The translations under genes were made by a program, and so were the position numbers. A DNA stretch of 64,000 bases, from NCBI RefSeq assembly GCF_001553625.1, contig NZ_CP014230.1, positions 2,418,001 through 2,482,000 of the forward strand, read 5' to 3'. This document shows positions 13,581 to 16,424 of the stretch, piece by piece. The notes beneath the pieces are model-generated. The model made no database searches and had not been told where the DNA came from. It was given only the letters and a program-made list of their open reading frames with translations. Positions within the stretch are counted from its first letter, which is position 1. Each line of letters opens with the position of its first letter. Source of the stretch: Desulfomicrobium orale DSM 12838 (GTDB taxonomy: Bacteria; Desulfobacterota; Desulfovibrionia; Desulfovibrionales; Desulfomicrobiaceae).

Positions 13581-14032
13581 TCAAATTATTTCTGCCCACA
13601 ATGAGATACACCTGATTTGCACGGCGGCAAGGAAGGAGAGGCTTCGTTTTGCATAACACGTGGCGATGCCACGCCATCTCTTGAGGTGAAGAAAGGCGTT
13701 CCCGACCAGGTGCCGTACACGGTACAGTTCTCTGTCATAGTCGCGCTGTTCCCTGCGATTTTTTCTGGGCGGGATGACGGACTGGCAGCCGGACTCAACA
13801 GCCTTGTCTGTAAGTTCATTGCTGTCATATCCGCGACCAGGCAAAAGCATCTCCGCGCTCAAGCCATCAATCAATGCACACGCTTCCTTGCAATCAGCTC
13901 TGGTACCTTCTGTAACAACAACTCTGAGCGGCATGCCATGCGCATCCACGGCCAGATGTATTTTGGTGTTGAGCCCCCTTTTGTACGGCTCATCGCCTAG
14001 TTGCCGCCAACCGCTCCGGCAGCATGGGGATG
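13581..14032 (-). pseudogene. IS5-family transposase remnant
   Basis: C-terminal two thirds of an IS5-type transposase. Recognisable blocks are [11 protein letters not shown], then SRTKGG and [40 protein letters not shown] and HLKRWRGIA. It is dead several times over. The first catalytic Asp is missing with the N-terminus. The usual ADRGYD reads PGRGYD, so the second Asp is lost. HLVENAF reads HLVGNAF, so the Glu is lost. There is also an in-frame TAG (GGN-stop-AMSR) and a one-base shift near KGG/LN. The 5' part and both inverted repeats were not found. It abuts a catalase tail at about 14032. Confidence 0.88.
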
Positions 14033-14145
14033 CCCCGGAAGAGGTCAAAATCCGGCATATCTCCAATTGCCTGAAGGCCGACCCTGCCTATGGCAAAGGC
14101 GTCGCCGACGCTCTCGGCATCGACCTGGCCCGGGCGCCCAGATAA
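14032..14145 (+). pseudogene. Catalase C-terminal remnant
   Basis: About 37 codons ending in TAA at 14145 read [10 protein letters not shown], then [19 protein letters not shown]. This is the characteristic last helix region of monofunctional haem catalases (EEVxxRxxxxxxKADPxYGxxVAxxLG). Everything upstream, including the haem-binding core, is missing; the sequence runs directly into an IS5 transposase fragment on the opposite strand. Since the IS end is missing too, the junction looks like a deletion rather than a simple insertion. Identification rests on one short motif-rich block. Confidence 0.7.
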
Positions 14146-14289: not shown

Positions 14290-15924
14290 TTACTTTCCGA
14301 ACTGGCACTTGGGGTATGTGCATACTTTGCAGGCCAGACAAAAACCGCCTTCGCCCATGCGGGAGAGTTCCGCGCGGGTGATTTCCCGCCCGGCCAGCAT
14401 ACGCGGCAGCACAAGATCCAGAAATGTCGTCTTGAAATAGAGCGCGCAGGCGGGCACACCGAGAACCTGCATCCAGCCGTCGCGGCCGGGAAGCCTGCCC
14501 ATGAGGCTCATGGCCCCGGGCAGTACCGGAACGCCGTGCAGCACATCCGTCAGTCCGGCCTCGAGCAGAGCCTGCCGGGTGACGTCGTCGGGGTCCACAG
14601 ACAGTCCTCCCGTGGTTACCAGCAGGTCCGCGCCCGCCTCACGGATGTCCGCAACCGCCGAGGCGATAGCCTCCCGGTCGTCGGGGGCGATGACGGATTT
14701 GACCACCGTGCAGCGGTACTGCCTGGCCTTGGCCGTGATCACGGGAATGAACCTGTCCTCAATGACGCCCTGAAACACTTCGGTGCCGGTCACCAGAATG
14801 CCCACCTTGGCCTGTCGCAGCGGCAACACGCGAAAGAGAGGTTCACTGCCGAGCACATGCAGCGCCTCCCCCAGACGTTCGGAACTGATATGAAGCGGTA
14901 TGGCCCGCGTGCCAGCCAGCTTGTCGCCCTTGGAGACCACCGCTCCATCCTGGCGCGAGGCCGCCATGATCTCGGGAATCATGTTGAAACATCGCATCCG
15001 CTCCACATCGACGCAGAACAGGCCGTCGATACCGGCCATAAAATCGATCTTTCCTTCGTGCGGAGGCAGACTGTAGGTCACCCCCAGTCCGGCCATGCGC
15101 CGGGCGAACTGTTCCGCCGCCTCGTTCTCGTGCACCAGTCCTTCCGTGGAGGCCGAGCCGCCCTGTACGGCCACATGGAAACGCCCCATCTGTTGCAGCC
15201 GGCAGATGTCGCCCACGGTAATCCGCTGCCCGGCCTTGAACTCCGGCCCCTTGAACACGCCCGGCTCTATGCGGGTCATGTCGTGCGCAGCCTGCTCTCC
15301 CACGGCTTCTTCCACCGGCACCACCCGCACCGGAGAAACGGCTTTGACCGTCCGCCCTACCGTCACATAGGGAGCCTCCCCCTGGCAGCCGCGGCAGATG
15401 GGACCGTCGTCCGTAGGATAAGCCTCGCCGCACAGAGCACACACGCCTATCTCTTTCATATGCGAATGGCCCAGGAAACGACGCTTGATGGTCATCGCCT
15501 CCACCTTGCAGAGGTTCTCTCCCGCGGCCTCGATTTCCCTCAGCAGACGAGCCTCGTCCTGATCCTTCTTGGGCTTTTTCTTCAGAAACCAAGCCTCGAT
15601 TTCCGGAAAGACCGCAAGCCGGGCCGGATCGATGCTGACCCGCACGCCCTCGCCGGTGTGCTTGTCGAAGAGGGAAACGGCGTACCGTCCAAGGTTATGG
15701 ATCTTCATCCAGTTGTTGCCCGTGCTGCACAAAGTCAGAAGCTGCACGGCATCGGGCAGGCACTTGCGGCTCTCGACCACGGCCTCGAAGAGAGTGCCCT
15801 CCGGGAGATGGCGCTTGGCCAGTTCGACCATATAGCCGCCCACAAGCAGGCCGGGGGCCGCGTATCCGTGAAAATTCTCCGCAAGACGTTTGAACTCCTC
15901 GAACGAATAAGGACCGATATGCAT
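14290..15924 (-). CDS. FmdE domain / molybdopterin-binding (MoeA-like) fusion protein
   Basis: 544-aa multidomain protein. Residues about 1-190 match the FmdE family (subunit E of tungsten/molybdenum formylmethanofuran dehydrogenase): SFEEFKRLAENFHGYAAPGL, then ESRKCLPDAVQLLTLCSTGN. This is followed by a four-Cys zinc-ribbon-like patch, CALCGEAY...CRGCQG (residues about 210-232). The C-terminal half carries a MoCF/MoeA-type molybdopterin-binding domain with VGILVTGTEVFQG and TTGGLSVDPDDVT. A terminal CLACKVCTYPKC adds further cysteines. A role in delivering molybdenum or tungsten cofactor to dehydrogenases is inferred. The ATG at 15924 has GAGGAA. Confidence 0.85.
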   Translation of the reverse strand: MHIGPYSFEEFKRLAENFHGYAAPGLLVGGYMVELAKRHLPEGTLFEAVVESRKCLPDAVQLLTLCSTGNNWMKIHNLGRYAVSLFDKHTGEGVRVSIDPARLAVFPEIEAWFLKKKPKKDQDEARLLREIEAAGENLCKVEAMTIKRRFLGHSHMKEIGVCALCGEAYPTDDGPICRGCQGEAPYVTVGRTVKAVSPVRVVPVEEAVGEQAAHDMTRIEPGVFKGPEFKAGQRITVGDICRLQQMGRFHVAVQGGSASTEGLVHENEAAEQFARRMAGLGVTYSLPPHEGKIDFMAGIDGLFCVDVERMRCFNMIPEIMAASRQDGAVVSKGDKLAGTRAIPLHISSERLGEALHVLGSEPLFRVLPLRQAKVGILVTGTEVFQGVIEDRFIPVITAKARQYRCTVVKSVIAPDDREAIASAVADIREAGADLLVTTGGLSVDPDDVTRQALLEAGLTDVLHGVPVLPGAMSLMGRLPGRDGWMQVLGVPACALYFKTTFLDLVLPRMLAGREITRAELSRMGEGGFCLACKVCTYPKCQFGK

Positions 15925-16087: not shown

Positions 16088-16399
16088 CTAGCCGCAGGAC
16101 GTGCAGGAGCTGCACCCGCCGCCCGCATTCTGCATCTTGAGCGCGGAGTTGACGTTGAAACCCATATGCGGGTGGAATTCCACGGAAATGGATTTGGCCT
16201 CGCCCATCAGGGACTTTTCGACAAGGAAGGTGTACCCTTCGACCTCGTGTACGACATCTGTATCCTTTTGCTCATCCAGAGCAAGCGCCAAGCGAGGTCC
16301 GCCTCAGCCTGCCGCCATGTAAACCCGGATCGGGGAAACTTCCTTTCCCGCGAAGTGCATATCCAGCTGCTCTTTGGCAGCCTTGGCCAGTTCAAACAT
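16088..16399 (-). CDS. HesB/IscA-like selenoprotein with in-frame TGA (Sec32)
   Basis: 103-aa HesB-like protein readable only if TGA at 16306-16304 is selenocysteine. Start ATG 16399 has a textbook AAGGAGG. Before the TGA the frame gives MFELAKAAKEQ and IRVYMAAG. After it come GGPRLALALDEQKD, then GYTFLVEKSLMGEAKSISVE and a Cys-rich end GGGCSSCTSCG, all continuous A-type Fe-S carrier sequence. The motif AAG-U-GG is where HesB-like selenoproteins carry Sec and other homologues carry Cys. A hairpin UUGCUC-UGGAU-GAGCAA starts 19 nt after the UGA. Its likely role is iron-sulfur or redox chemistry. Automatic annotation would split or truncate it. Confidence 0.9.
16262..16286 (-). promoter_or_regulatory. 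Putative bacterial SECIS hairpin of the HesB-like gene
   Basis: In the mRNA the stem UUGCUC / GAGCAA encloses the loop UGGAU, with 25 nt between the UGA and the loop. A short stem, a small loop with G in its first two positions, and 16-37 nt from the UGA are the accepted features of bacterial SECIS elements. Coordinates are approximate. Confidence 0.65.
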
Positions 16400-16424
16400 A
16401 ATATCCTCCTTGTTGTGAGGCAGG

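Follow-up and report, generated by a model that had tools for sequence, protein, structure and literature searches.

The gene analysed here almost certainly encodes a HesB-like selenoprotein, a selenocysteine (Sec)-containing member of the NF038090 IscA/HesB family. It lies within a window of 64,000 nucleotides of Desulfomicrobium orale DSM 12838 (G000:C1:2418001–2482000; the genome, G000, is a single contig of 2,783,374 bases), where a minus-strand frame yields 103 residues if an in-frame TGA is read as a residue. Re-reading of the sequence upheld the coordinates, frame, start, TGA at codon 32 and stop given in the original prediction (Table 1), as well as its ribosome site, an AGGAGG-type AAGGAGGATATT-ATG at the gene start; AGGAG-type sites also stand upstream of nearly all homologues compared. 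Near the gene, no minus-strand promoter and no terminator passed a consensus scan. Standard ORF calling, as had been anticipated for annotation pipelines, recovers only the C-terminal 67 of the 103 residues, from a TTG start at 16291, and a correct annotation is therefore worth having.

Table 1 Features of the HesB-like selenoprotein gene, its neighbour and further in-frame TGA genes of the same genome. Positions are those of the window unless a contig is given.
Feature	Position	Strand	Details
FmdE domain, treble-clef zinc finger and molybdopterin-binding domain fusion (FmdE-MoCF)	14290–15921	−	
HesB-like selenoprotein gene, complete	16088–16399	−	103 aa with predicted Sec32, stop TAG
Cys-rich C-terminal tail GCSSCTSCG	16091–16117	−	region equivalent to the IscA Cys99/Cys101 tail; low model confidence
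Apical hairpin of putative bacterial SECIS	16268–16284	−	stem UUGCUC/GAGCAA, loop UGGAU
In-frame TGA, codon 32, predicted to be decoded as Sec	16304–16306	−	from homologue comparison, Sec machinery and alignment with IscA Cys35
Ribosome binding site AAGGAGGATAT before ATG	16401–16411	−	from sequence
selD with its own in-frame TGA	G000:C1:210545–211462	−	reads AAGUASKL
[NiFeSe] hydrogenase large subunit, in-frame TGA	G000:C1:1623427–1624779	−	same genome

The protein matches the NCBIfam model NF038090 (IscA_HesB_Se) over its full length (101 bits against a cut-off of 85, model positions 1–101 of 101), and nothing separates it from this family. Its similarity to TIGR01911 (HesB_rel_seleno) is weak and below the cut-off (24.3 bits, cut-off 66.35), which makes that model a sister subfamily and not the protein's own. 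The gene is thus of an already known kind, since this selenoprotein family has been described since 2006, when a list of 11 HesB-like members included D. vulgaris and D. desulfuricans (PMC1794560); DVU_1382 of D. vulgaris was published as a HesB-like selenoprotein in 2007 (PMC1914089), and both reports agree with the original prediction that such proteins are known in this lineage. The DVU_1382 type belongs to the same order, Desulfovibrionales, and shares the HesB family and an in-frame TGA with the window gene; the window protein comes from another genus and has another sequence. For D. orale DSM 12838 itself, a 2025 survey by tblastn with known families counts six selenoprotein genes, all of them of known families and none new (PMC12013277). 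Because such a search should find it, the window gene is probably one of these six. The value placed on rescuing the gene is accordingly justified in that the standard ORF call misses the N-terminal part, but was overstated, given the curated NF038090 model and the 2025 survey; general knowledge of selenoproteins is unchanged by the window gene.

An AlphaFold model of the protein, built from eight sequences and reaching a mean pLDDT of only 72 with a poor tail, has the IscA fold of A-type Fe–S carriers, matching E. coli IscA with a Z of 10.5 and SufA with 9.6, along with further proteins of the IscA type, AQ_1857 and DsrR among them. Unrelated folds scored Z ≤ 2.6 against the model, and Foldseek gave six matches at E ≤ 0.001, each of them to IscA or SufA. 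Plain phmmer of the window protein against the PDB gave no match; profile alignment did, and placed residue 32 on Cys35, one of the ligands of IscA alongside its C-terminal cysteines. Compared with E. coli IscA and SufA, the window protein has the same predicted fold but 16–20% identity, Sec for Cys and a longer Cys-rich tail. The A-type carrier identity proposed earlier therefore holds at the level of the NF038090 assignment and of the IscA/SufA fold.

Because the general A-type Fe–S carrier model TIGR00049 stayed below its cut-off (21.4 bits, cut-off 58.8) and no A-type domain was matched by Pfam in the window protein, support for the carrier role comes from the fold and the alignment of residues, which make it probable. 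The protein would then bind and pass on Fe–S clusters or iron, with Sec serving as a cluster or metal ligand, perhaps a stronger or more easily re-reduced one. A selenoprotein that uses the IscA fold otherwise, for Sec redox chemistry or for handling selenium or metals, is also possible, though somewhat unlikely. It is favoured by the general carrier models not rising above cut-off, by the SSC and TSC runs in the tail, which differ from the CGC of IscA, and by the short neighbourhoods compared, in which there was no clear conserved operon and ORF clustering mixed in antisense ORFs. In addition, a 2026 review that supplies a RefSeq query for annotated members calls the functions of most of its listed selenoproteins unclear (PMC13188914). 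Against such a role, the fold and the ligand position match IscA.

The decisive evidence that codon 32 encodes Sec is comparative. Among the loci compared, the codon at the Sec/Cys position is TGA in 48 distinct sequences, TGC or TGT in 45 and another codon in 5. The window TGA falls at the conserved Cys position of HesB-like selenoproteins, where TGA is conserved across Desulfovibrionales, and the segment AAGUGGPRLALALDEQKD, TGA included, is kept in every Desulfomicrobium Sec copy examined. Measured against the Desulfomicrobium copies L006, L053 and L054, pN/pS was 0.03–0.04 before the TGA versus 0.21–0.25 after it. The latter value indicates that the downstream part is translated protein, as originally predicted, rather than random readthrough; this part is somewhat less constrained than the N-terminal one.

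Directly downstream of the TGA stands a bacterial SECIS-type hairpin with a G in its apical loop, with the stem, the loop sequence and the 25-nt distance from TGA to loop that had been claimed for it. As a single sequence, the 57-nt stretch of the window folds no better than dinucleotide shuffles (z 0.19). Among synonymous recodings that keep the peptide, 99.6% are less stable than the apical 19-nt hairpin; all six stem pairs form in 3.6% of the recodings, and 0.4% are as stable. An Rfam scan of the window gave no match and is uninformative on bacterial SECIS elements.

The decisive evidence for the SECIS is the presence of the hairpin in the 48 TGA homologues and its absence from the 45 Cys copies as a group. 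All 48 distinct TGA copies have a downstream hairpin, 47 of them with GCUCUGGAYGAG, and GCTCTGGAYGAG surrounds the loop in 47 of 48 TGA copies versus 1 of 45 Cys copies, from which the motif is thus nearly absent. The loop is flanked by Ala GCT, Leu CTG and Glu GAG in 48/48 TGA copies; the GCT codon itself occurs in only 5/45 Cys copies. Sec copies form on average 5.77 of the 6 stem pairs versus 4.01 in synonymous recodings (12.4 sd above), whereas Cys copies form 3.00 versus 3.16 in their recodings (−1.3 sd). By these computations, the putative SECIS is under selection.

The stem also shows covariation. At columns 24 and 38 the helix pair takes the forms G-C, U-A and C-G, in that a Leu codon varies at its third base in step with the second base of the codon five further on: CTT goes with CAA or CAG, CTG or TTG with CCN, TCN or GCC, and CTC with CGA, so that synonymous Leu changes are matched to a Gln, a Pro/Ser/Ala or an Arg codon. 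None of 500 shuffles reached the covariation score computed over 22 distinct rows; no slid structure did so either, and these slid controls scored much lower. Because the covariation lies in a single pair and the counts are inflated by related sequences, we give equal weight to the contrast with the Cys copies. A synonymous Leu position that tracks a neighbouring codon while the SECIS stem is kept offers a clean example of selection at the RNA level.

A search of the D. orale genome for selA, selB, selC and selD found all four, with selA at 599 bits, selB at 357 bits and a tRNA-Sec at 78 bits to which ARAGORN assigns the anticodon tca; both selD and a [NiFeSe] hydrogenase gene carry in-frame TGA codons of their own (Table 1). 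Together with the conserved TGA and the hairpin comparison, this machinery supports the decoding of codon 32 as Sec, and we infer that insertion takes place in the cell. Translation would begin at 16399, and the hairpin 20–36 nt past the UGA would hold SelB with tRNA-Sec(UCA), which very likely inserts Sec at codon 32. The product would be a complete protein of the A-type carrier kind, with Sec in place of Cys35, the first of three cysteines that ligate the cluster in IscA.

Were the UGA an ordinary stop, the locus would encode a peptide of 31 aa plus, from the TTG, a separate protein of 67 aa, or would be a decayed pseudogene. Standard ORF calling, which yields the 67-aa C-terminal ORF only, agrees with this; however, 48 distinct homologues have the TGA exactly where other copies have Cys, the codons on both sides of it are under purifying selection, the hairpin is conserved in TGA copies only, and the genome holds the full Sec machinery, all of which make an ordinary stop very improbable. 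That a misread TGC or TGT lies behind the TGA has a negligible probability, since nothing beyond the existence of Cys paralogues speaks for it and the same TGA and hairpin are carried by a separately assembled close relative (G006, locus L003; 98% identical at the HesB-like protein) and by all other Desulfomicrobium Sec copies examined. The two refuting outcomes set out in the original prediction were both checked, and neither arose: selA, selB, selD and a tRNA-Sec are present in the genome, and the relatives have TGA at the codon.

Besides this Sec copy, the D. orale genome has a Cys paralogue (G000:4496–4795) that is 56% identical to the window protein and scores over the NF038090 cut-off, and Sec and Cys copies co-occur in most genomes of the genus. 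Some sulfate reducers exchange [NiFeSe] and [NiFe] hydrogenases according to selenium supply. By analogy, the window Sec copy and its Cys paralogue might form a selenium-dependent pair exchanged in the same way, a proposal with which the co-occurrence in the genus is compatible and which we nevertheless hold to be unlikely; if true, Sec would tune a carrier feeding particular Fe–S enzymes.

A general link in function to FmdE-MoCF, the downstream gene that starts at 15921, was considered and rejected: among the loci compared, this neighbour recurs only in the nearest relative (loci L003 and L050) and is not beside the other Desulfomicrobium Sec copies. An ORF beside the FmdE-MoCF gene (13581–14066, minus strand) reads by eye like a transposase fragment.

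Across the order and the ranks below it, members of the family occur in 97 of 101 genomes. A natural contrast that favours Sec decoding is offered by one genome of the same family as D. orale (G020) and one of the same order (G045): both are without selA and without a tRNA-Sec above cut-off, and hold Cys copies only, which are without the hairpin motif. A third genome (G090) is likewise without selA and has Cys copies only. Five genomes (G032, G036, G040, G059 and G074) carry a TGA copy with no selA match. Incomplete assembly is the likely reason, because their completeness is 77–94% and a clear tRNA-Sec is present in four of the five.

On the best tree, which has few columns and many open forks, the Sec label needs 16 changes, and the well-supported branches call for at least 8; the two forms, Sec and Cys, have thus interconverted repeatedly. 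Within the genus and its family, the Cys copies make up one supported clade (bootstrap 100, SH-aLRT 97), with one Cys copy of G020, L083 (G020:C14:21179–25466), standing apart. This copy clusters with L008 and L059, which are Sec copies (bootstrap 95, SH-aLRT 60), its hairpin is degraded, and it is probably a recent Sec-to-Cys reversion.

Most of the compared genomes belong to another family of the order, f5, in which the motif is usually GGU[AS]GP, as against AAGUGGP in the window protein, and in which Sec and Cys copies are often in tandem. Such tandem arrays were seen at L021, L023, L025 and other f5 loci, and some f5 genomes have a third tandem copy with neither Sec nor Cys at the position. 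At a further locus, L057 (G016:C16:1–5689), three family members follow one another; one of them has Lys in place of Sec or Cys, and another is a very divergent TGA copy with a branch length of 2.5 and a weaker hairpin.
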